A stretch of 64,000 nt of DNA from Pedobacter sp. D749. Its GTDB lineage: Bacteria; Bacteroidota; Bacteroidia; Sphingobacteriales; Sphingobacteriaceae. The position numbers were made by a program, and so were the translations under genes. Where the stretch lies: NCBI RefSeq assembly GCF_019317285.1, contig NZ_CP079218.1, positions 4,774,001-4,838,000 on the forward strand, read 5' to 3'. Below the pieces are notes generated by a model. It searched no databases, was not told where the DNA came from, and worked only from the letters and a program-made list of their open reading frames with translations. Position 1 is the stretch's first letter, and every line of letters begins with the position of its first letter. Shown here piece by piece: positions 16,745 to 34,486 of the stretch.

Positions 16745-16849
16745 GCGGAATGGACGGGACTCGAACCCGCGACCTCCTGCGTGACAGGCAGGCATTCTAA
16801 CCAGCTGAACTACCACTCCTTTTGTTCTTCTTTAAAGTTCGAACCTCTT
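16745..16849. repeat. 105-bp direct repeat, copy 1 (tRNA-Asp and upstream region)
   Basis: Exactly the same 105 bases occur at 32550-32654, in the same orientation. The copy includes the whole tRNA and 30 nt of its upstream region. Confidence 0.95.
16746..16819 (-). tRNA. tRNA-Asp (GTC)
   Basis: A 74-nt cloverleaf on the minus strand: acceptor GGAGTGG / CCATTCC, D arm with AGCTGGTTAGA, anticodon loop CTGTCAC (anticodon GTC), T arm GCGGGTTCGAGTCCCGT, discriminator G. CCA is not encoded. It is identical to the tRNA at 32551-32624. Confidence 0.95.
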
Positions 16850-17152: not shown

Positions 17153-17374
17153 TTAATCTGCATATTCCTCCAATATACTTAGCGTATATTTTGATAGTTT
17201 GTATTTTACGGCTACCAGGCCGAAAAATCTTTTCAAGGTAGTTGCGCTGATCATTTTTTTAGTGCTCTTAGAAATCTCTTCCGACAAAAATCTGCAATCC
17301 CAGGAAGTAACAGAACTTAGCCCGGCTTTTAAACAGACGCGGGCTCTTAGTTCTTTTAATGCTTTATCATCCAT
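17153..17374 (-). CDS. Short hypothetical protein (truncated N-terminal domain type)
   Basis: 73 residues. The stretch FLSEEISKSTKKMISATTLKRFFGLV...LSKYTLSILEEYA matches a small helical N-terminal domain found in longer uncharacterised Bacteroidota proteins, where it is followed by a variable C-terminal part. Here it stops right after this domain, so it may be a remnant or a free-standing version. It starts 10 nt beyond a strong hairpin following the ompA gene and could be read through from that operon. Confidence 0.45.
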   Translation of the reverse strand: MDDKALKELRARVCLKAGLSSVTSWDCRFLSEEISKSTKKMISATTLKRFFGLVAVKYKLSKYTLSILEEYAD

Positions 17375-17423: not shown

Positions 17424-19382
17424 CTAATATTTTAAAATGGTAAATTCTGTTCTTCTATTTTGCTGATGTTCTGCTGTAGAACAGCTCACGCCATTTGAGC
17501 AGCGGTTAAGCAAACGTGTTTCGCCATAGCCTTTGGCAGTCATCCTACTTCTCGCGATACCCCGGCTTACCAGGTAATTGACTACAGATCTTGCTCTCCG
17601 TTGAGAAAGGTCCAAGTTGTAGATATCTACACCACGACTATCTGTATGAGAAGCAAGTTCAATTTCCAGGGTAGGGTTGTCCCTCATGGTGCGGACCAGT
17701 TCATTCAATATTTTTGCCGCATCAGCCCGGATATTGTCCTTGTCAAAGTCGTAATGAATATTCGCAAGTCTCAGTGTTTTACCCTCTTCAAACAACGGCT
17801 CTAAGCGCAATTCGGCATATAAAGTATCTGATTTTGTCAGCCCTTTTGTGGTTAACATTGCTGAGTCTGCGTAGAACTTTATTTTGGTTCCAAGCACTTT
17901 ATAGTCGCTTTCTTTATCAAGCTGAAAGAAGAAGGTACCATCCTGTTCATTGATTTTTTTTGCTACGATACCTGATCCGTCCTTCGACAGGGTAACTGTC
18001 ACATCAGAAAGGCGTTCCTGAGTTTTCTTGTTAAACGCTACCCCACGTAGCGCGAGAATAATTTTCGGACGGGAATAGTTGAACGTATAGATGTCGTCAG
18101 AACCCTGTCCACCTTTACGGTTAGATGCCAGATATCCGGTAATTCCATCGGGGGTTGGCCCGGTGGTAAAGAAAGCAAAGTCATCTGCAGCAGAGTTAAC
18201 AGGATACCTTAAATTTACTGCTTTCGTCCAGTTGGATTTATTACCCTTGCTGCTGAAAATATCCAGGCCGCCCATTCCGGGCAATCCGTCTGTAGAAAAG
18301 TATAGTGTACCAGTTTCACTTACCGAAGGAAACATTTCGTTGCCAGCAGTATTTACCGATGGCCCTACATTAATAGGTTTTCCCCAGGTACCGTCAGACT
18401 GCAGGTCGCTATACCAGATATCTGTTCCGCCCAATGTTCCGGGCATATCAGACACAAAATACAGCGTTTTTTCGTCGGAACTCAGACTTGCATGACCCAC
18501 GGAGTATTCTTTAGGTTTGTTATACGCAAAAGGCTGCACCTGGTAATTCCCCGTCTGCTTATTCTTAGTGTAAATATAAAGTTCGAGGTTACTTGTTTTA
18601 TATTTTCGTTTGCCAGCTTTACCCACTTCACCCTCGCTGCCCGTGTAAGTGCGGGTAACGTAAAAAACGTTTTGGGACTTGTCCGATACGAGCGGTCCCT
18701 GATGAAACGGAGCATCATTAAGGCCTGATTTTATCACCACAGGATTAGTGAGGTTATGCTCCATATCCGACATTGAGGCATAGATTTTAAGAAAGCTATT
18801 TCCCGTCCAGCCATAAGTTTTGTTCAATCCTTTGTTTTCCGGCTCTCCGGTAAAATACACAAGTTTTCCCACAGGGTAGGCTGAGAACTCCGAAAGCGGT
18901 GTGTTTACCCCCGTTTCATTTCTAATCTGGTAGGAGAGCGGATTTGCCATCCAGGTAATGGCAGAGTCGCAACCTGCAAGTTGCAAGGCCACCTGAGGCG
19001 TAAGGCCGATCTTAGTGGCATAGTCAGCAAACACCTTTTTTGCCTCTGCGTATTTAAGATTTGCTTTCAGCATTTCGCCATAATAGAGTAGGTTGATGGC
19101 CGAACTTTCAGGCATAGCGATAACGCGCGAGTACCAGGTTTCCGCAGCCTCAAAGTCGTTCATATTGCGGTAACACAGTGCGAGATTTTCAAGGTCTTTA
19201 AGTCGCGGATTATCCTTGTCCACCAGTTTTTGGATTAGGGTGGCAGCGTTTGCATAGCTATATTGATTTAAAAGCATCTGAGCCCTTTCACGGACCCCGG
19301 GTTGTTCTTGAGCATTTGCCGATCCGAGCAGGATTGAGAGGACAACAACGACTAAACTAAATTTCCTATAATGGTTGTTCAT
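17424..19382 (-). CDS. OmpA-family outer-membrane protein with TPR and WD40-like (PD40) domains
   Basis: 652 residues with a signal peptide (1-24). In order: TPR-like helices (about 30-135), a beta-propeller of PD40 repeats (about 190-420; YFVSDMPGTLGGTDIWYS and YFSTDGLPGMGGLDIFSS are blades), a carboxypeptidase-regulatory/CNA-like beta domain (about 440-520), and a C-terminal OmpA domain (about 535-650) with ASHTDSRG and NRRTEF, which binds peptidoglycan. Such proteins accompany PorP/SprF and giant adhesins in Bacteroidota and resemble the periplasmic type IX protein PorE. It is the last gene of the adhesin operon and starts 1 nt after the stop of a 45-codon ORF. Confidence 0.88.
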   Translation of the reverse strand: MNNHYRKFSLVVVVLSILLGSANAQEQPGVRERAQMLLNQYSYANAATLIQKLVDKDNPRLKDLENLALCYRNMNDFEAAETWYSRVIAMPESSAINLLYYGEMLKANLKYAEAKKVFADYATKIGLTPQVALQLAGCDSAITWMANPLSYQIRNETGVNTPLSEFSAYPVGKLVYFTGEPENKGLNKTYGWTGNSFLKIYASMSDMEHNLTNPVVIKSGLNDAPFHQGPLVSDKSQNVFYVTRTYTGSEGEVGKAGKRKYKTSNLELYIYTKNKQTGNYQVQPFAYNKPKEYSVGHASLSSDEKTLYFVSDMPGTLGGTDIWYSDLQSDGTWGKPINVGPSVNTAGNEMFPSVSETGTLYFSTDGLPGMGGLDIFSSKGNKSNWTKAVNLRYPVNSAADDFAFFTTGPTPDGITGYLASNRKGGQGSDDIYTFNYSRPKIILALRGVAFNKKTQERLSDVTVTLSKDGSGIVAKKINEQDGTFFFQLDKESDYKVLGTKIKFYADSAMLTTKGLTKSDTLYAELRLEPLFEEGKTLRLANIHYDFDKDNIRADAAKILNELVRTMRDNPTLEIELASHTDSRGVDIYNLDLSQRRARSVVNYLVSRGIARSRMTAKGYGETRLLNRCSNGVSCSTAEHQQNRRTEFTILKY

Positions 19383-19383
19383 A

Positions 19384-19521
19384 TTAATTTTTGGTTAAAG
19401 TGATCTTAATGTGTTCTATTAATTCTACCAGGCCAATAACGAAAGCCGACACGACTAAGATGGATAATAACATCAGCCAGACCACGCCGGCTGTTGCTTT
19501 TAGGATGTAACAAAGTATCAT
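19384..19521 (-). CDS. 45-residue single-TM microprotein between porP/sprF and ompA
   Basis: An ATG at 19521 opens a 45-codon ORF ending in TAA at 19384. It starts 1 nt after the porP/sprF stop (19523) and ends 1 nt before the ompA-like ATG (19382), so it fills the 140-nt space between them exactly. The product has one hydrophobic helix (about residues 11-33: AGVVWLMLLSILVV, SAFVIGLVEL) with a short N-terminus (MILCYILKAT) and a basic C-terminus (IKITLTKN). Exact packing between two genes is the strongest argument that it is translated. The function is unknown; it may be an accessory of surface-protein export or of the envelope anchor. No family is recognised. Confidence 0.7.
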   Translation of the reverse strand: MILCYILKATAGVVWLMLLSILVVSAFVIGLVELIEHIKITLTKN

Positions 19522-19522
19522 A

Positions 19523-20536
19523 TTAAAAAAATCTTGGACTCAGTAAACGAATATCCTTCCGTGGGAAGGTCATACCGAGGGTGATCTCGTGCGTACCGTT
19601 TGAGATGCTTCCGAGCCTACTCAGCGCATAATCGTAAGAATAGCCGATGCGAAAACGTTTGTCCACATAAAATTGGGCGATGCCTGAAATTGCGTTCAAT
19701 TGACTAAGATCCTGTCCATCAGTATATTTTTTCTTCCAGGTTTTTACACCCGTGCGGTATGCCCCACCGAACCATACTTTGCCACCGAAGATGACCATTG
19801 CGCCTACATCTAAACTGGTTGGCCCTTTAAAATCCTCTTTAATCATAATACTCGGGCGCAGTTTAGTATCTTCATTCAGATCGACCAACATGCCCGTAAT
19901 CAAATACATATGACGCTGGCGCCTGATATTTTCATTACTACCATCACTCCAACGGAAGATTGCATTGTCGTAGGATTTAGAAAATAGATCCATTACAGAC
20001 GCGCCAATATAAAATTTAGGACTCGAGTAGTACACTCCAAACCTGGCATCAGGAATGATATTGCTGATTTTACCAACCGGCAGCGATTGATCACCACCAT
20101 CTACCGGGTTAAGCATGCTTCCATCTAAGCCATATTGTGTGAGGCCGACACCAACACCAAAACTTAATCTTCTTGTGTCCTCATCATTTAACCGGATTCG
20201 GTACGCATAATTGACATAAGCAGAATTTGCCGATTGCGGACCGAGCTTATCAGCCGTAATCTGTAAGCCCAGGCCCATTCTTTTCGTATACGGATCCAGA
20301 ACCCCATCGATAGAAATCTGCCCGGTCCTCGGAGCACCTTGAATCCCTGTCCATTGGCTTCTGAGGGCCATCTGGGCAAACCATTCCTCCTTATAACCGG
20401 CATAAGCAGGGTTTACGCTCAATGAATTGAAAATATATTGTGTAAACTGGATGTTCTGCTGCGCAAGAACCGGAGTAGTTCCACAACATAGCAAAGCTGC
20501 TACCAGTATTAATTTATTTATGCCTTTTATCTTCAT
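19523..20536 (-). CDS. PorP/SprF family outer-membrane protein
   Basis: 337 residues with a signal peptide ending AQQ at about 26. The start of the mature protein has the family signature: QNIQFTQYIFNSLSVNPAYAGYKEEW (residues 27-52), in particular NPAYAG. The rest alternates short beta strands with turns, as in a small barrel (TRRLSFGVGVGLTQYG, ...YYSSPKFYIGASVMDLFS). Family members work with type B CTD cargo of the type IX secretion system; SprF is needed for SprB output in Flavobacterium. It follows the adhesin gene by 35 nt and so is its likely dedicated partner. Confidence 0.92.
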   Translation of the reverse strand: MKIKGINKLILVAALLCCGTTPVLAQQNIQFTQYIFNSLSVNPAYAGYKEEWFAQMALRSQWTGIQGAPRTGQISIDGVLDPYTKRMGLGLQITADKLGPQSANSAYVNYAYRIRLNDEDTRRLSFGVGVGLTQYGLDGSMLNPVDGGDQSLPVGKISNIIPDARFGVYYSSPKFYIGASVMDLFSKSYDNAIFRWSDGSNENIRRQRHMYLITGMLVDLNEDTKLRPSIMIKEDFKGPTSLDVGAMVIFGGKVWFGGAYRTGVKTWKKKYTDGQDLSQLNAISGIAQFYVDKRFRIGYSYDYALSRLGSISNGTHEITLGMTFPRKDIRLLSPRFF

Positions 20537-20571: not shown

Positions 20572-23500
20572 TTATTTTTTAATTAAAACCCAACCTTTTT
20601 TAATCTGCTTATCGTTGCCGTTTCTCAGCGTGATCATGTAGTAATAGGTGCCTGCGTTTAGGCCCTGACCGTCCCATGTGTTTTTGTAGTTGCTGTTACG
20701 GTATACTTCATTACCCCATCTGTTAAAGATTGCTATTTCTACCTGTTGGTAGTTTTCGATACCTACGATTACGAACAGATCATTCTTTCCATCACCATTA
20801 GGCGTAAACACATTAGGTATAAAGAAGCCCGTTACATCGATAGTCGCGATAGCCACATTGGTCCAGTTTCCATTCTCGTCTTTTACGCGGTAAGTAAACT
20901 GATCTTTCCCGGTGTAGCCGCTATATGGCGTATAGATTACAGTTCCGTCAACATTAACTACCAGTGTTCCATGCGCCGGAGACGAGATAACTTCAACCGT
21001 CGATCTGTCGAATGGAGATCCGTCGATCCTGTCGTTGGTAAGTACAGGAATTGATACCGGCTTATTGTATTCCGTTTCTGCATGATCATCAATTGCGATC
21101 GGTTTAGAAGGAATCACCGTAATTGTTACCGTTGCAGTGTTAGAAACCTGACCGTTTTCATCGGTGACGGTATATGTAAAAGTATCCGTTCCGGTATATC
21201 CGTTATCAGGTGTATAATTTACTGTACCATCTGTATTCACCTTAACCGTACCATGAGCAGGATTGGTAATCACAGTTGTACTTGCAGGCACTAAAGGCTT
21301 GCTTCCAGGAAGATCATTAGTTTGAACATTGACGGTTACCGGTTTATTTTGCTGCGTTTTACCAGCGTCATCTTTCGCTACAGGCGGCTTAGCTAAAGGT
21401 GTTTCCGTAGCCGTATCATTGTCGGTATCTGTACCCGATGTGTCTTTCACATCGTTGCCTTTAGGATCTTTGGCCGTTGCCACTGCTGTGTTTGTTACCT
21501 TTCCGTTATCAATATCTGCAGCTGTAATTTTATAAGTTTCCTTATGAGTTACCGTGGCACCTGGTGCAAGTGCTCCAGGGATCACTTTTGTACCAGCAAA
21601 GATCAAAGGATCATTAAGAACAATATTGCTCAATGTTGTGTTTCCTGTATTAGTGATCGTGAAGGTGTATTCGATGTTGTTGTTTAACACGAAAGCACCC
21701 TGTACACCAGTTCCCACGTTAGTTACCTTTTTAACAAGTACCAAAGCACCAGTTTGTGGAAGTGGTGTAACCGTGCAATCCGGACAGGCAGGATCAACAG
21801 GAGGCGTACCAGGACCTGAAGGGTTACCGCTTTCAGACTGATCGGTAACGTTGTTTCCTTTAGGATCTTTACCCGTTGCTGTTGCAATGTTGTAAACAGC
21901 ACCTTTATCAATATCCGCTTGTGTTACCGTGTAAGAAGCAGTAAATGTAGTTAAGTCGGCAGCACCAGGAAGTAAAGTTACCGGACCACCGGTTACTGTT
22001 ACTTTAGGGTCAGTAATAACGATGTCACTTACCGTTACGTTACCAGTATTTTCAACTTTGAAGGTATAGCTGATCTTGTCGCCAAGGTTTACTTTACCGT
22101 CACCGTTGGTATCTGCATAAGTTCCGGTTTTAGTTAATTTAATGACCGGGGTTTGTGGAAGTGGAGTAACCGTGCAATCCGGACAGGCAGGATCAACAGG
22201 AGGCGTACCAGGACCTGAAGGATTACCACTTTCAGACTGATCGGTAACATTGTTTCCTTTAGGATCTTTACCAGTTGCTGTTGCAATGTTGTACACAGCA
22301 CCTTTATCAATATCGGCCTGTGTTACAGTATAAGAAGCAGTGAATGTATTTAAGTCGGCAGCACCAGGAAGTAATGTTACCGGTCCGCCAGTTACGGTTA
22401 CTTTAGGGTCAGTAATAACGATGTCACTCATCGTTACGTTACCAGTATTTTCAACTTTGAAAGTATAGCTGATCTTGTCGCCAAGGTTTACTTTACCGTC
22501 GCCATTGGTATCTGCATACGTTCCGGTTTTAGTTAATTTAATAACCGGGCTTTGTGGAAGTGGAGTAACCGTGCAATCCGGACAGGCAGGATCAACAGGA
22601 GGCGTACCAGGACCTGAAGGATTACCACTTTCAGATTGATCGGTAACATTGTTTCCTTTAGGATCTTTACCTGTTGCTGTTGCAATGTTGTAAACAGCGC
22701 CTTTATCAATATCGGCCTGTGTTACCGTATAAGAAGCAGTGAAGCTTGACAGGTCTGCTGCACCAGGAAGTAAAGTTACCGGGCCACCAGTTACGGTTAC
22801 TTTAGGGTCAGTAATAACGATGTCACTCACTGTTACGTTTCCAGTGTTTTCAACTTTGAAAGTATAGCTGATCTTGTCGCCAAGGTTTACTTTACCATCG
22901 CCATTGGTATCTGCGTAAGTTCCGGTTTTAGTTAATTTAATAACAGGAGTTTGTGGAAGTGGGGTAATCGTACAATCCGGACAGGCAGGATCAACAGGAG
23001 GCGTACCAGGACCTGAAGGGTTACCACTTTCAGATTGATCGGTAACATTGTTTCCTTTAGGATCTTTACCCGTTGCTGTTGCAATGTTGTACACAGCACC
23101 TTTATCAATATCGGCCTGTGTTACCGTATAAGAAGCAGTGAAGCTTGACAGGTCGGCTGCACCAGGAAGTAAAGTTACCGGGCCACCAGTTACGGTTACT
23201 TTAGGGTCAGTAATAACGATGTCACTCACTGTTACGTTTCCAGTGTTTTCAACTTTGAAAGTATAGCTGATCTTGTCGCCAAGGTTTACTTTACCATCGC
23301 CATTGGTATCTGCGTAAGTTCCGGTTTTAGTTAATTTAATAACCGGGCTTTGTGGAAGTGGTGTGATTGTACAATCCGGACAGGCAGGATCAACAGGAGG
23401 CGTACCAGGACCTGAAGGGTTACCACTTTCAGACTGATCGGTAACGTTGTTGCCTTTAGGATCTTTACCAGTTGCTGTTGCAATGTTGTAAACAGCACCT

Positions 23501-26500
23501 TTATCAATATCGGCCTGTGTTACCGTATAAGAAGCAGTAAATGTATTTAAGTCTGCTGCGCCAGGAAGTAATGTTACCGGTCCGCCAGTTACGGTTACTT
23601 TAGGGTCAGTAATAACGATGTCACTCACCGTTACGTTTCCAGTGTTTTCAACTTTGAAAGTATAGCTGATCTTGTCGCCAAGGTTTACTTTACCATCGCC
23701 ATTGGTATCTGCGTAAGTTCCGGTTTTAGTTAATTTAATAACCGGGCTTTGTGGAAGTGGTGTGATTGTACAATCCGGACAGGCAGGATCAACAGGAGGC
23801 GTACCAGGACCTGAAGGGTTACCACTTTCAGACTGATCGGTAACGTTGTTGCCTTTAGGATCTTTACCAGTTGCTGTTGCAATGTTGTACACAGCACCTT
23901 TATCAATATCGGCCTGTGTTACAGTATAAGAAGCAGTGAATGTATTTAAGTCGGCAGCACCAGGAAGTAATGTTACCGGTCCGCCAGTTACGGTTACTTT
24001 AGGGTCAGTAATAACGATGTCACTCATCGTTACGTTACCAGTATTTTCAACTTTGAAAGTATAGCTGATCTTGTCGCCAAGGTTTACTTTACCGTCGCCA
24101 TTGGTATCTGCATACGTTCCGGTTTTAGTTAATTTAATAACCGGGCTTTGTGGAAGTGGAGTAACCGTGCAATCCGGACAGGCAGGATCAACAGGAGGCG
24201 TACCAGGACCTGAAGGATTACCACTTTCAGATTGATCGGTAACATTGTTTCCTTTAGGATCTTTACCTGTTGCTGTTGCAATGTTGTAAACAGCGCCTTT
24301 ATCAATATCGGCCTGTGTTACCGTATAAGAAGCAGTGAAGCTTGACAGGTCTGCTGCACCAGGAAGTAAAGTTACCGGGCCACCAGTTACGGTTACTTTA
24401 GGGTCAGTAATAACGATGTCACTCACTGTTACGTTTCCAGTGTTTTCAACTTTGAAAGTATAGCTGATCTTGTCGCCAAGGTTTACTTTACCATCGCCAT
24501 TGGTATCTGCGTAAGTTCCGGTTTTAGTTAATTTAATAACCGGAGTTTGTGGAAGTGGAGTAACCGTGCAATCCGGACAGGCAGGATCAACAGGAGGTGT
24601 ACCAGGACCTGAAGGGTTACCACTTTCAGAATGATCGGTAACGTTGTTGCCTTTAGGATCTTTACCCGTTGCTGTTGCAATGTTGTAAACAGCACCTTTA
24701 TCAATATCCGCTTGTGTTACCGTGTAAGAAGCAGTAAATGTAGTTAAGTCGGCAGCACCAGGAAGTAAAGTTACCGGACCACCGGTTACTGTTACTTTAG
24801 GGTCAGTAATAACGATGTCACTTACCGTTACGTTACCAGTATTTTCAACTTTGAAGGTATAGCTGATCTTGTCGCCAAGGTTTACTTTACCGTCACCGTT
24901 GGTATCTGCATAAGTTCCGGTTTTAGTTAATTTAATGACCGGGGTTTGTGGAAGTGGAGTAACCGTGCAATCCGGACAGGCAGGATCAACAGGAGGCGTA
25001 CCAGGACCTGAAGGATTACCACTTTCAGACTGATCGGTAACATTGTTTCCTTTAGGATCTTTACCAGTTGCTGTTGCAATGTTGTACACAGCACCTTTAT
25101 CAATATCGGCCTGTGTTACAGTATAAGAAGCAGTGAATGTATTTAAGTCGGCAGCACCAGGAAGTAATGTTACCGGTCCGCCAGTTACGGTTACTTTAGG
25201 GTCAGTAATAACGATGTCACTCATCGTTACGTTACCAGTATTTTCAACTTTGAAAGTATAGCTGATCTTGTCGCCAAGGTTTACTTTACCGTCGCCATTG
25301 GTATCTGCATACGTTCCGGTTTTAGTTAATTTAATAACCGGGCTTTGTGGAAGTGGAGTAACCGTGCAATCCGGACAGGCAGGATCAACAGGAGGCGTAC
25401 CAGGACCTGAAGGATTACCACTTTCAGATTGATCGGTAACATTGTTTCCTTTAGGATCTTTACCTGTTGCTGTTGCAATGTTGTAAACAGCGCCTTTATC
25501 AATATCGGCCTGTGTTACCGTATAAGAAGCAGTGAAGCTTGACAGGTCTGCTGCACCAGGAAGTAAAGTTACCGGGCCACCAGTTACGGTTACTTTAGGG
25601 TCAGTAATAACGATGTCACTCACTGTTACGTTTCCAGTGTTTTCAACTTTGAAAGTATAGCTGATCTTGTCGCCAAGGTTTACTTTACCATCGCCATTGG
25701 TATCTGCGTAAGTTCCGGTTTTAGTTAATTTAATAACAGGAGTTTGTGGAAGTGGGGTAATCGTACAATCCGGACAGGCAGGATCAACAGGAGGCGTACC
25801 AGGACCTGAAGGGTTACCACTTTCAGATTGATCGGTAACATTGTTTCCTTTAGGATCTTTACCCGTTGCTGTTGCAATGTTGTACACAGCACCTTTATCA
25901 ATATCGGCCTGTGTTACCGTATAAGAAGCAGTGAAGCTTGACAGGTCGGCTGCACCAGGAAGTAAAGTTACCGGGCCACCAGTTACGGTTACTTTAGGGT
26001 CAGTAATAACGATGTCACTCACTGTTACGTTTCCAGTGTTTTCAACTTTGAAAGTATAGCTGATCTTGTCGCCAAGGTTTACTTTACCATCGCCATTGGT
26101 ATCTGCGTAAGTTCCGGTTTTAGTTAATTTAATAACCGGGCTTTGTGGAAGTGGTGTGATTGTACAATCCGGACAGGCAGGATCAACAGGAGGCGTACCA
26201 GGACCTGAAGGGTTACCACTTTCAGACTGATCGGTAACGTTGTTGCCTTTAGGATCTTTACCAGTTGCTGTTGCAATGTTGTACACAGCACCTTTATCAA
26301 TATCGGCCTGTGTTACAGTATAAGAAGCAGTGAATGTATTTAAGTCGGCAGCACCAGGAAGTAATGTTACCGGTCCGCCAGTTACGGTTACTTTAGGGTC
26401 AGTAATAACGATGTCACTCATCGTTACGTTACCAGTATTTTCAACTTTGAAAGTATAGCTGATCTTGTCGCCAAGGTTTACTTTACCGTCGCCATTGGTA

Positions 26501-29500
26501 TCTGCATACGTTCCGGTTTTAGTTAATTTAATAACCGGAGTTTGTGGAAGTGGTGTGATTGTGCAATCCGGACAGGCAGGATCAACAGGAGGCGTACCAG
26601 GACCTGAAGGGTTACCGCTTTCAGACTGATCGGTAACATTGTTTCCTTTAGGATCTTTACCCGTTGCTGTTGCAATGTTGTAAACAGCACCTTTATCAAT
26701 ATCGGCCTGTGTTACAGTATAAGAAGCAGTAAATGTATTTAAGTCTGCTGCGCCAGGAAGTAAAGTTACCGGTCCACCGGTTACGGTTACTTTAGGGTCA
26801 GTAATAACGATATCACTTACCGTTACGTTACCCGTATTTTCAACTTTGAAAGTATAGCTGATCTTGTCGCCAAGGTTTACTTTACCGTCGCCATTGGTAT
26901 CTGCATACGTTCCGGTTTTAGTTAATTTAATAACCGGAGTTTGTGGAAGTGGTGTAATTGTACAATCCGGACAGGCAGGATCAACAGGAGGCGTACCCGG
27001 ACCTGAAGGGTTACCACTTTCAGACTGATCGGTAACGTTGTTTCCTTTAGGATCTTTACCCGTTGCTGTTGCAATGTTGTAAACTGCACCTTTATCAATA
27101 TCGGCCTGTGTTACCGTATAAGAAGCAGTAAATGTAGTTAAGTCTGCTGCACCAGGAAGTAAAGTTACCGGACCACCGGTTACGGTTACTTTGGGGTCAG
27201 TAATAACGATATCGCTGACCGTTACGTTACCAGTATTTTCAACTTTGAAAGTATAGCTGATCTTGTCGCCAAGGTTTACTTTACCATCGCCATTGGTATC
27301 TGCGTAAGTTCCGGTTTTAGTTAATTTAATAACCGGGGTTTGTGTGATGATCGTTTCAGTAGGCGTATCATTTAAAGCAGTAGATCCCGAAATATCACTT
27401 ACAGGTGTATTGATTGGATCCTTAGCAGTAACAGTAGCCTGGTTTGTTACCTTACCAGCATCAACATTAGCCTGAGTAACCGTATATGTACCTGAGTAAG
27501 TCCATACTTCGCTAACACTAAGCAACTGATCGTTACCAGTATCGCCCGTAGGGCCAGTTAAGGTAACAAAAGGCAGACTTTCAGCTAAAGCGACCGTGTT
27601 CAATATTACATCCCCTTCGTTTTTGACTTTAAAGCTGTAATTAATCACATCACCAAGTTTGAAAGTGCCACCAGCACCGCTACCCGTATTCGTTATCGAT
27701 TTAACTAAAGATATTTTCGGATTGGTACCAATGGTGATCGTTACCGTAATCGGGTCAGAATCTACCAGATCGCCCGTAGTAAGTTTGTAGGTGTATGTAT
27801 CCGTACCGATATAACCATTTGTTGGCGTATAGGTAATTGTTCCATCACCATTAACCACAACAGAACCGTGCGTTGGATTAGCCACTTTACTAACAGTGGT
27901 ACCCGATGCACTGACACCATCGTTAGATTTTACAACTGTTGTAACCGGAGTGTTCAATGCAGTTAAACTAGCATCATCAACACCAACCGGTTTAATGCGG
28001 ACAGTAATTGTACCCTGATTACTTACAACACCTGCATTGTCTTTTACCGTGTATTTAACCGGCGTTGCAATACCGATAAAGGCAGGCTCAGGGTTAAAGG
28101 TAACTTGTCCAGTTGCCGGATCAACGGTATAAACACCCTGGTTGGCTACCGTAAGACTGGTACTATAGGTATTTGTTGTTGGGTTAAATAGTAAAACTGT
28201 TGTTTTATTGATTGTTGCGTTACCGTTTGGATCCGTATCGTTTGCAAGAACGTCAATAATCAAGTCAGTGTCTATAGTAGTAGATACTCCATCGTTTACA
28301 GCAACCGGAACCTGATCAACGGCAAAGTTTACCGCTGTTACATCCATGCTTAAACCAGGTATCACTACTGTAACCCGCATGTCAGGCACACCAGTTTCAA
28401 ACCCCGTCTGACTGTTGTTAACTCCAAACGCATCACCTACAGCATTCCAGCCAGTGGGTATTGTTGGCGGGATATTAGCTATTGTATTGGTTCCGTTTAC
28501 CGGCACATTAACAGTAGAAATAGCCACACTATACGTCCCCTTATTCAGGTTGGCAAATTGATAGCTGCCATCAGCGGCAACAGGCGTTTTAGCAATAATT
28601 TTATTCGTGTTATCTAATAAGTAAGCGTATAGTGGAGATCCGCCGAGCGTGTTGATTCCTGTTCCGGAGATTTGATTATCACTCAGGCCGTTTCCGTCGT
28701 TAATCACATTTCCAGAAATTGACGGACCAATAATATCTTTCAGCTTGTAATCTTCTGTTTCACCATCGGCAGCGAACGACGTACTTCGCTCATCTACCGG
28801 CGTAGCAGGATCATCAATTAGAGTACTTGTTGTTATTCTGATCCGTGCATAGAGCGGCCCGGTTTTGATGTCATTAATAAAAGACGCATTAGGATAAGTA
28901 AGCGTTACTGTATAATTGGAAGCATTGGCCGGAACAGTAACACTGATCATTTCATTGGGAGAAAAAATACCATCCCCATCAAAGTCGACCCACCCACGTA
29001 CCACAGCAGGTACGTTTTTAGTATTAGTAACCGGAAATCTAATGACATAATCCCCAGCCTGATTCACCTTAACGTCGGCTAATGCCGAAGCATCAATCGT
29101 GTTTTCATCATTATTCTGCGTATTGTTATCTGCATTAGCCAGGGGCCCATGAGCACCCAGACCATCCGCATCTACATTTGGCGAACCGATATACACTGTA
29201 GCCTCAGGCGTTAATGGTGTAGTAGGGTAATTAACAGTGGCATAATCGCCGTCACCAGGAAAATAATCGGTGATCAAAAATTTATCAATATAATGGCCAA
29301 CTTTATCACCATAAGAAATCGGGGCATCCCCAAGATCAAAAGGCAAGACAAAACCGATAGCCATGGCGGTAATACCAGAACCTTTCATCTCTACATCCAG
29401 CAGGTTGCTTGCATTGTGGGCAAACATAACTGCCTGGATACCAAAATTGCCTGGCGTAAGGTTAGCAGAAAGTTTAAATTTCTTACCTGCATTAGAGAGC

Positions 29501-30132
29501 AACATTCTATAGTGGTCATCATTAGCGTTACCATTGGTACGCTTGTTTAGCAGCTGCCAGGCAATAGAAGAAGGCGATGTTCCCTGGATATATTCACCAC
29601 CAGCATCAATAGATTCAGCATCGCCGATCACCATACCTGGGTAAGTAATATTTGTCCAGACCCCGTTCATCAAGATATCAACTTTTACGTCGATATCGAA
29701 CTTGATTGTTGCGCCGGTTGTGGTAGCAAGACCCGAATTTACCACACCTCTGGAATTGGGCTTAGTAAGTCCGTTTCCAGAATAGATCAGGTCGAGCCCA
29801 TCACCGGAATATTGACCAGGCGTATAGGCTACCATATTTCCGCCAGCATTAGTAGTGCGGTTAGAAATGATGGCCGTAATGCGGACTGTTGGGGAGAACA
29901 TCCAGCGGTACGTACCATTTACCACATTGTTACTGTTAAAAGCAGCTGGCTTTTCAGTCAGGGTAGCATTATCCCAGGTAAGCCAGTATACAGCTTTGGT
30001 AAGATCGCCAGCTGTTCCGCCAATGGCATATTGTGCCCTGGCGTTGTTTACGAAAAAAGTTAGAGCAACGAGCAATCCAATTGCGTACCGAAATCGTAAG
30101 TTTCGTTTTAAATAAAGTAAAAATTTTTCCAT
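20572..30132 (-). CDS. Giant type IX-secreted adhesin with 14 tandem DUF7507-like repeats
   Basis: 3186 residues. Signal peptide about 1-33 (ending NNARAQ); an N-terminal lectin-like/GEVED region (about 40-470, DGETEDYKLKD); a carboxypeptidase-regulatory domain; Ig/CshA-like modules (IDVLANDTDPNG; YTPTNGYIGTDTYTY); one diverged DUF11/DUF7507 unit; then 14 units of 133 residues (932-2793), each with a DTNGDGKVNLGD Ca2+-loop motif and a CPDC pair; another diverged unit and two more Ig-like modules; and a gliding-motility-type C-terminal domain (about 3100-3186, IPNVFTPNGDGKNDLF to the final KGWVLIKK). The last is a type B CTD used by the type IX system. It is probably a long surface fibre for attachment or gliding, as for SprB-class proteins. 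Repeat number may vary. Confidence 0.93.
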   Translation of the reverse strand: MEKFLLYLKRNLRFRYAIGLLVALTFFVNNARAQYAIGGTAGDLTKAVYWLTWDNATLTEKPAAFNSNNVVNGTYRWMFSPTVRITAIISNRTTNAGGNMVAYTPGQYSGDGLDLIYSGNGLTKPNSRGVVNSGLATTTGATIKFDIDVKVDILMNGVWTNITYPGMVIGDAESIDAGGEYIQGTSPSSIAWQLLNKRTNGNANDDHYRMLLSNAGKKFKLSANLTPGNFGIQAVMFAHNASNLLDVEMKGSGITAMAIGFVLPFDLGDAPISYGDKVGHYIDKFLITDYFPGDGDYATVNYPTTPLTPEATVYIGSPNVDADGLGAHGPLANADNNTQNNDENTIDASALADVKVNQAGDYVIRFPVTNTKNVPAVVRGWVDFDGDGIFSPNEMISVTVPANASNYTVTLTYPNASFINDIKTGPLYARIRITTSTLIDDPATPVDERSTSFAADGETEDYKLKDIIGPSISGNVINDGNGLSDNQISGTGINTLGGSPLYAYLLDNTNKIIAKTPVAADGSYQFANLNKGTYSVAISTVNVPVNGTNTIANIPPTIPTGWNAVGDAFGVNNSQTGFETGVPDMRVTVVIPGLSMDVTAVNFAVDQVPVAVNDGVSTTIDTDLIIDVLANDTDPNGNATINKTTVLLFNPTTNTYSTSLTVANQGVYTVDPATGQVTFNPEPAFIGIATPVKYTVKDNAGVVSNQGTITVRIKPVGVDDASLTALNTPVTTVVKSNDGVSASGTTVSKVANPTHGSVVVNGDGTITYTPTNGYIGTDTYTYKLTTGDLVDSDPITVTITIGTNPKISLVKSITNTGSGAGGTFKLGDVINYSFKVKNEGDVILNTVALAESLPFVTLTGPTGDTGNDQLLSVSEVWTYSGTYTVTQANVDAGKVTNQATVTAKDPINTPVSDISGSTALNDTPTETIITQTPVIKLTKTGTYADTNGDGKVNLGDKISYTFKVENTGNVTVSDIVITDPKVTVTGGPVTLLPGAADLTTFTASYTVTQADIDKGAVYNIATATGKDPKGNNVTDQSESGNPSGPGTPPVDPACPDCTITPLPQTPVIKLTKTGTYADTNGDGKVNLGDKISYTFKVENTGNVTVSDIVITDPKVTVTGGPVTLLPGAADLNTFTASYTVTQADIDKGAVYNIATATGKDPKGNNVTDQSESGNPSGPGTPPVDPACPDCTITPLPQTPVIKLTKTGTYADTNGDGKVNLGDKISYTFKVENTGNVTMSDIVITDPKVTVTGGPVTLLPGAADLNTFTASYTVTQADIDKGAVYNIATATGKDPKGNNVTDQSESGNPSGPGTPPVDPACPDCTITPLPQSPVIKLTKTGTYADTNGDGKVNLGDKISYTFKVENTGNVTVSDIVITDPKVTVTGGPVTLLPGAADLSSFTASYTVTQADIDKGAVYNIATATGKDPKGNNVTDQSESGNPSGPGTPPVDPACPDCTITPLPQTPVIKLTKTGTYADTNGDGKVNLGDKISYTFKVENTGNVTVSDIVITDPKVTVTGGPVTLLPGAADLSSFTASYTVTQADIDKGAVYNIATATGKDPKGNNVTDQSESGNPSGPGTPPVDPACPDCTVTPLPQSPVIKLTKTGTYADTNGDGKVNLGDKISYTFKVENTGNVTMSDIVITDPKVTVTGGPVTLLPGAADLNTFTASYTVTQADIDKGAVYNIATATGKDPKGNNVTDQSESGNPSGPGTPPVDPACPDCTVTPLPQTPVIKLTKTGTYADTNGDGKVNLGDKISYTFKVENTGNVTVSDIVITDPKVTVTGGPVTLLPGAADLTTFTASYTVTQADIDKGAVYNIATATGKDPKGNNVTDHSESGNPSGPGTPPVDPACPDCTVTPLPQTPVIKLTKTGTYADTNGDGKVNLGDKISYTFKVENTGNVTVSDIVITDPKVTVTGGPVTLLPGAADLSSFTASYTVTQADIDKGAVYNIATATGKDPKGNNVTDQSESGNPSGPGTPPVDPACPDCTVTPLPQSPVIKLTKTGTYADTNGDGKVNLGDKISYTFKVENTGNVTMSDIVITDPKVTVTGGPVTLLPGAADLNTFTASYTVTQADIDKGAVYNIATATGKDPKGNNVTDQSESGNPSGPGTPPVDPACPDCTITPLPQSPVIKLTKTGTYADTNGDGKVNLGDKISYTFKVENTGNVTVSDIVITDPKVTVTGGPVTLLPGAADLNTFTASYTVTQADIDKGAVYNIATATGKDPKGNNVTDQSESGNPSGPGTPPVDPACPDCTITPLPQSPVIKLTKTGTYADTNGDGKVNLGDKISYTFKVENTGNVTVSDIVITDPKVTVTGGPVTLLPGAADLSSFTASYTVTQADIDKGAVYNIATATGKDPKGNNVTDQSESGNPSGPGTPPVDPACPDCTITPLPQTPVIKLTKTGTYADTNGDGKVNLGDKISYTFKVENTGNVTVSDIVITDPKVTVTGGPVTLLPGAADLSSFTASYTVTQADIDKGAVYNIATATGKDPKGNNVTDQSESGNPSGPGTPPVDPACPDCTVTPLPQSPVIKLTKTGTYADTNGDGKVNLGDKISYTFKVENTGNVTMSDIVITDPKVTVTGGPVTLLPGAADLNTFTASYTVTQADIDKGAVYNIATATGKDPKGNNVTDQSESGNPSGPGTPPVDPACPDCTVTPLPQTPVIKLTKTGTYADTNGDGKVNLGDKISYTFKVENTGNVTVSDIVITDPKVTVTGGPVTLLPGAADLTTFTASYTVTQADIDKGAVYNIATATGKDPKGNNVTDQSESGNPSGPGTPPVDPACPDCTVTPLPQTGALVLVKKVTNVGTGVQGAFVLNNNIEYTFTITNTGNTTLSNIVLNDPLIFAGTKVIPGALAPGATVTHKETYKITAADIDNGKVTNTAVATAKDPKGNDVKDTSGTDTDNDTATETPLAKPPVAKDDAGKTQQNKPVTVNVQTNDLPGSKPLVPASTTVITNPAHGTVKVNTDGTVNYTPDNGYTGTDTFTYTVTDENGQVSNTATVTITVIPSKPIAIDDHAETEYNKPVSIPVLTNDRIDGSPFDRSTVEVISSPAHGTLVVNVDGTVIYTPYSGYTGKDQFTYRVKDENGNWTNVAIATIDVTGFFIPNVFTPNGDGKNDLFVIVGIENYQQVEIAIFNRWGNEVYRNSNYKNTWDGQGLNAGTYYYMITLRNGNDKQIKKGWVLIKK
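21754..27339 (-). repeat. Array of 14 tandem 399-bp in-frame repeats in the adhesin gene
   Basis: Fourteen copies, each exactly 399 bp (133 codons), with no length change. Copies differ by a few codons (VSD/MSD, TTF/NTF/SSF, CTIT/CTVT). Units 4-7 and 11-14 show the same variant order. Two stretches, 21857-23490 and 24650-26283, are identical over 1634 bp at an offset of 2793 bp (seven units). Short-read assemblies could have collapsed or expanded it. Confidence 0.97.
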
Positions 30133-32549: not shown

Positions 32550-32654
32550 GCGGAATGGACGGGACTCGAACCCGCGACCTCCTGCGTGACAGGCAGGCAT
32601 TCTAACCAGCTGAACTACCACTCCTTTTGTTCTTCTTTAAAGTTCGAACCTCTT
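32550..32654. repeat. 105-bp direct repeat, copy 2
   Basis: Exact copy of 16745-16849; the offset is 15,805 bp. Beyond the exact core, weak similarity continues for about 30 nt (TTTCG...TGCAAATATA...ACTATAT) into the tRNA promoter region. Confidence 0.95.
32551..32624 (-). tRNA. tRNA-Asp (GTC), second copy
   Basis: Identical in all 74 positions to the tRNA at 16746-16819, with anticodon GTC in the loop CTGTCAC. Same orientation. Confidence 0.95.
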
Positions 32655-33801: not shown

Positions 33802-34486
33802 ATTTATTCTTGTTGAAATTTCCTGACGGCGGGTATAGGCCCAAAAATTCAGGAAATGCAAAAATAAGGAAAAAAGCTGAATTAGTTTGTTTAGGATTAT
33901 AGGTTAATTGGTTAACTTTTTGAACTGGTTAATCGCTTGGACGTAATGCGAGATAAAATAAAACAATATGTTGTCCGTTAGTCAAAAATTCTAAAAAGTT
34001 GATTTAAGGTTTTGGAAATGAGCAGTTCCTCTCCTATGGCAGCCGGTAGCCCCGCTATCACTCCAAGTCCTCGCTGCGCTGTGGGCTTTCCGTTTTATCG
34101 GGTTTAGGAACACAGGGAGGGTGCAGTTAGGCCCAATGCGACCCTCAATAGTAGCATGAACCTGCGTAACTAAACGGGATTGTAGTGGCAGCTCCCGATT
34201 TTCCTTCAAAATCGGGACTATAACGGAAAGCCCGACGAACATTAAGAAAAGTTACATACACTGCTTTCCAAAAAAACAGACTATATAGTTGGAATAATAG
34301 TTTTAGGCTGAGAAAAGTGCTATTTAAAGGTTTTGGAAATGGGCAGTTCCTCACTTATGGCGGCCAGTAGCCCCGCTATCACTTCAAGTCCTCGCTGCGC
34401 TGTGGGCTTCCCGTTTTATCGGGTTTAGGAACAGAGGGCGGCACAGCTAGGCGATGTGCAACCCAAATAGCTAAACGGCTCAAAAA
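33802..34486. repeat. Gene-free spacer with two direct copies of a ~138-bp repeat
   Basis: Copies at 34006-34144 and 34327-34464 (offset 321 bp) share long stretches such as TAGCCCCGCTATCACT, GTCCTCGCTGCGCTGTGGGC and CCGTTTTATCGGGTTTAGGA, with scattered changes. Each holds a small CCCGATAAAACGGG hairpin on the minus strand. Translations across it are not protein-like. It resembles dispersed intergenic repeats of Bacteroidota genomes. Confidence 0.8.

Follow-up and report, generated by a model that had tools for sequence, protein, structure and literature searches.

A probable young membrane microprotein gene between porP/sprF and ompA in a type-B adhesin module of Pedobacter

Introduction

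In a 64,000-nt stretch of DNA from Pedobacter sp. D749 (contig NZ_CP079218.1, positions 4,774,001 to 4,838,000 of the forward strand; hereafter, the window), an open reading frame (ORF) of 45 codons lies between a porP/sprF-like gene and an ompA gene, downstream of an adhesin gene. This raises the question of whether so short an ORF is a genuine gene and, if so, whether it encodes an undescribed accessory of PorP/SprF-dependent adhesin export or anchoring, as a sequence-only reading of the locus had proposed. The features concerned are the following, with positions given in the window; "the four genomes" are those that carry the ORF (see below).

19384-19521, minus strand: microprotein gene, stop included; 45 codons with an ATG start, MILCYILKATAGVVWLMLLSILVVSAFVIGLVELIEHIKITLTKN, and a TAA stop
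19519-19525, minus strand: junction TAA-T-ATG (porP stop, 1 nt, microprotein start), identical in the four genomes; candidate for stop-start translational coupling
19380-19386, minus strand: junction TAA-T-ATG (microprotein stop, 1 nt, ompA start); in P. alluvionis, a TGA overlapping the ompA ATG instead
20572-30132, minus strand: 3186-aa repetitive adhesin with a T9SS type B sorting domain (TIGR04131, 57.9 bits, cut-off 35; PF13585 CHU_C) and 16 stretches of DUF7507
19523-20536, minus strand: porP/sprF-like gene of the T9SS type-B shuttle family (Pfam PF11751, 240.6 bits; NCBIfam TIGR03519, 251.5 bits, cut-off 90.55)
17424-19382, minus strand: TPR-PD40-OmpA gene (ompA), related to PorE and CHU_0125, below both curated cut-offs
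17153-17374, minus strand: 73-aa ORF without a Pfam match, closing the stretch common to the four genomes
16745-16819 and 32550-32624, minus strand: two tRNA-Asp(gtc) genes bracketing the adhesin-porP-ompA module in the window

Results

The ORF and its operon

The ORF was found exactly where it had been placed, with a single nucleotide separating it from the porP/sprF stop upstream and from the ompA ATG downstream. Chance rarely produces such an arrangement, as had been supposed: when the 139-nt insert was shuffled with its dinucleotides preserved, 0.17% of the shuffles had an ATG within the first 6 nt and the corresponding stop at most 5 nt from the next ATG, and 0.025% had a stop-free frame as hydrophobic as the ORF. 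The most hydrophobic 19-residue stretch covers residues 14-32 (KD19 2.77), and AlphaFold predicted one continuous helix from residue 2 to residue 44 (mean pLDDT 91, from a single sequence), which is a weak test, as a helix is near the default for a hydrophobic stretch. The ORF thus has the properties of a small single-pass membrane protein, a short frame with one hydrophobic helix. The proposed helix is borne out by these values, but the basic C-terminus that went with it is not, the tail VELIEHIKITLTKN being about neutral with two E, two K and one H.

The surrounding operon matches the known type-B adhesin/PorP-SprF/PorE-like module, with ompA as the candidate PorE-like gene. The adhesin carries the type B sorting domain of a T9SS substrate, the PorP/SprF-family gene follows directly downstream with at most 36 nt between them, and the ompA product has the full domain order, its best NCBIfam matches being CHU_0125 (415 bits, cut-off 620) and PorE (366 bits, cut-off 600). 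In F. johnsoniae, type-B substrates, their cognate SprF-like shuttles and PorE-like proteins are likewise encoded together (PMC12618676). The adhesin contains about 16 repeats of the DUF7507/DUF11 type, many of them nearly identical within the gene, and is also 3186 aa long in P. terrae.

Distribution among relatives

We found the ORF in 4 of 145 congeneric (Pedobacter) genomes, namely that of the window (G000), P. alluvionis DSM 19624 (G061), Pedobacter sp. PF22-3 (G140) and P. terrae DSM 17933 (G004), the frame being kept at the same place in all three relatives. The same four genomes are those with porP genes of more than 90% identity; in the next relatives, the porP is ~69% identical or less. 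Whereas the nearest relatives keep the small transmembrane ORF, it is absent elsewhere rather than decayed. It was lacking at 17 loci with ompA downstream of porP (gaps of 1 to ~35 nt) and at eight more distant porP-ompA loci (gaps of 9-86 nt), and 79 porP-ompA pairs sampled family-wide, mostly with gaps below 80 nt, had no transmembrane ORF. Once a few double-counted loci are taken into account, the ORF is missing from roughly 100 equivalent gaps in Pedobacter and further genera of its family, and in equivalent operons the gap is usually too short to hold it. A core or accessory part of the T9SS would be present with the system across species; since so many porP-ompA pairs of the family do without the ORF, it does not qualify as a general component of that system.

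Among 399 family genomes, a profile search gave only short marginal matches outside the lineage (E 0.005-0.1), which we rejected as homologues, being short and in many cases interrupted by stops, and a weak tblastn match in a further genome (G077) was discarded because it lies at an unrelated locus and has a stop. Scanning the genomes of 84,980 species with short exact-type patterns, by which very distant relatives could be missed, returned just the three relatives named above. There was no homologue in viral contigs, Pfam, NCBIfam, PHROGs or PDB, the Pfam family PF07666 (MpPF26) reaching 16.5 bits against the microprotein, under its gathering cut-off of 37.2, and a search of the literature on small proteins of the group found nothing on the locus. 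The ORF is very probably a new family, an undescribed young microprotein gene that represents neither a new kind of system nor a general T9SS part.

Selection on the reading frame

The frame is intact in all four genomes, and neither internal stops nor disabling frameshifts, which would have spoken against a gene, were seen. Near its end, the P. alluvionis copy has a 1-nt indel that shifts the frame, but the ORF still terminates at the ompA ATG by way of the overlapping TGA. Across codons 1-31, seven of the eight variable sites are synonymous, one of them a TTA/CTA leucine, and the remaining one is V28I; in codons 32-45, every variable site changes the residue. Relative to P. terrae, dN in this core is 0 and dS is 0.30, as in the flanking genes (porP, 0.29; ompA, 0.32). 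Read in the other five frames, 0-4 of the same eight sites would be synonymous.

The synonymous excess in codons 1-31 was significant by Fisher's test (P 0.0002) and by a simulation in which eight changes were placed randomly (P 0.0006; 0.06% of trials gave seven or more synonymous changes and no stop). Codon 31 was chosen as the dividing point once the data had been seen. The unsplit ORF retained the excess (Fisher P 0.018, simulation P 0.028) in these tests, which cover four related genomes and the 13 sites that vary among the first 44 codons. It also showed 12 differences in 138 positions, compared to ~34 predicted from the synonymous rate of its neighbours (P about 1e-6). The tail of residues 32-45 is compatible with neutrality (P 0.14-0.20) and appears unconstrained. 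Codon-level purifying selection acts on the hydrophobic core, and what is kept in the core is its sequence and not hydrophobicity alone, pointing to specific contacts within the membrane. We are highly confident that the ORF is a translated, selected gene.

Mobility of the module

Past the 73-aa ORF downstream of ompA, synteny breaks between the window genome and P. alluvionis on one side and P. terrae and Pedobacter sp. PF22-3 on the other. In the window, the two tRNA-Asp genes flank the module, and a release-factor gene (Pfam PCRF and RF-1) is adjacent. In P. terrae, PF22-3 and two other genomes (G020 and G149), there is no module between two tRNA-Asp genes that lie ~0.2-1.5 kb from each other next to the release-factor gene, so that this site resembles an insertion hot spot. 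A close porP is lacking from several genomes whose release factor is 98-99% identical. From these module-free sites and close genomes, it follows that the module, with its microprotein gene, has a patchy distribution and has come to lie at more than one site.

Between P. terrae and PF22-3, porP differs at 3.8% of bases and ompA at 7.5%, the latter being as far apart as either is from the window genome, and these distances suggest recombination within the module. Elsewhere in the window, a Flavo-1 RNA (RF01705) was matched in Rfam at positions 34168-34241 of the plus strand (49.9 bits, gathering score 42). In another genus of the family (g27), the porP-ompA gaps of five loci (L117, L120, L122, L125 and L140; 273-332 nt) hold a different small gene family of soluble-looking proteins of 78-96 aa (e.g., MLLERVAQYLDTRTEFAYIKDEPRLEIWVKGKEWLPILVSK...) with no Pfam match above cut-off. 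The small genes taken up by equivalent porP-ompA gaps differ between lineages.

Origin of the ORF

In several sister operons, porP and ompA are one base apart (TAAnATG) without the ORF, and hence, the simplest history is a single gain at the stop-start junction. The source DNA was not found across the 145 congeneric genomes, a genus-wide DNA search giving only short chance matches. A remnant or duplicate of the neighbours was rejected, as alignments to the 5' end of the cell's own ompA, to the 3' end of its own porP and to the loci of relatives scored like shuffles; one marginal local alignment (L116, 26 versus a shuffle maximum of 25) was not repeated with a longer locus of the same place. 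Phage and plasmid origins were set aside as well, there being no relative in viral contigs and no similar DNA in plasmids. Birth de novo is as possible as acquisition from an unsampled genome.

Discussion

Taken together, these results indicate that the ORF is probably a genuine, young and lineage-restricted gene for a single-pass membrane microprotein, gained once in a T9SS type-B adhesin module and likeliest to serve as an optional modulator. That there is no gene here, and that the frame is open by chance over a conserved RNA or DNA element or lies in recently inserted neutral DNA, would fit the few species, the lack of homologues and the neutral-looking tail. It is nevertheless very improbable, as the synonymous pattern is specific to the frame of the ORF and the divergence is far below neutral, which together make a chance ORF unlikely. 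An RNA element or attenuator was rejected because the fold of the region is no more stable than that of shuffles (z 0.31), none of 37 pairs changed on both sides, and Rfam has no match at the ORF. A signal peptide could be read into K8, the hydrophobic stretch and V-S-A at 24-26, which would suit the -3/-1 rule, with cleavage near A26 freeing residues 27-45 as a small secreted peptide. This is hardly credible, since the would-be product is variable and the would-be signal conserved, the reverse of what is expected, and the hydrophobicity runs on beyond the cleavage site.

If the ORF is a gene, the peptide might still do little, the ORF acting purely in cis as a translated spacer along which ribosomes travel from porP to ompA. 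The TAATATG at both of its ends and the termination of the P. alluvionis variant at the ompA start are in keeping with such a spacer, but no spacer is needed in sister operons, where ompA follows porP directly or after 1-40 nt, and a spacer would not call for a dN close to 0 across codons 1-31. Given this conservation of the peptide and the spacer-free sister operons, we hold a purely cis role to be improbable. The microprotein could instead serve PorP/SprF-dependent export or anchoring of the adhesin as a dedicated accessory, acting directly on PorP, on the PorE-like OmpA protein or on the T9SS. Its gene lies inside a type-B adhesin/SprF-like/PorE-like operon (PMC12618676), its core is conserved, and it occurs only with the module; against this, about 100 equivalent operons lack it, and a helix predicted to be in the inner membrane would not by itself sit with the outer-membrane PorP. 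We therefore regard this dedicated role as unlikely, and a direct action on the adhesin, PorP or OmpA proteins, taken on its own, as doubtful. As equivalent operons do without the microprotein, export and anchoring cannot depend on it in general. Of the accessory originally proposed, what stands is a conserved and very probably real gene of the adhesin-PorP/SprF-OmpA operon in four genomes, while a general function in export or anchoring does not.

We thus favor an optional modulator encoded by a gene that would have been gained once between porP/sprF and ompA and would now travel with the module. The operon mRNA would be translated into the microprotein by stop-start coupling at the TAA-T-ATG junctions, so that its synthesis would keep pace with that of PorP and the OmpA protein. 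The microprotein may insert in the inner membrane as one helix, its N-terminus probably inside, with K8 before the helix and E33 and E36 just after it, and may act through specific helix contacts, for which A26-x3-G30 is a possible packing motif. Since the core sequence, and not hydrophobicity alone, is kept and the microprotein is found only with the module, its likeliest role would be to modulate the expression, membrane insertion or export of the module's own products. It is conceivable, although rather unlikely, that a newly born microprotein has become a selected, module-specific helper which, within one lineage, regulates an outer-membrane shuttle/anchor pair from the inner membrane and is carried with a mobile adhesin module. 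As the microprotein belongs to a described type of secretion operon, direct read-outs exist in adhesin display and in the levels of PorP and OmpA. If translated and functional, it would be a clear case of a young bacterial gene with its ancestral junction still visible, the bare TAAnATG of the sister operons.

Small single-helix bacterial membrane proteins encoded beside larger partners include KdpF, CydX and AcrZ. Like these, the microprotein has fewer than 50 residues, one helix and a place in an operon with envelope proteins; unlike them, it has outer-membrane and surface proteins as neighbours, and no sequence relation to them was found. Young membrane proteins born de novo have been described in yeast (PMC7005711), and the microprotein resembles them as a short orphan with a hydrophobic helix. 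However, it is encoded in a bacterial operon and is under strong purifying selection, and de novo birth is one option for it beside an unsampled source. The closest likeness in gene order is to Fjoh_3952-3951-3950 of F. johnsoniae (PMC12618676), where, as here, a type-B substrate is followed directly downstream by a SprF-like shuttle and then by a PorE-like OmpA protein, for which the ompA product is the candidate counterpart, and the PG1035-PorP-PorE complex (PMC9143113) is made of the kinds of proteins that the flanking genes encode or, for PorE, may encode. In contrast to both, one Pedobacter lineage alone has an extra single-helix microprotein gene between the shuttle and OmpA genes.
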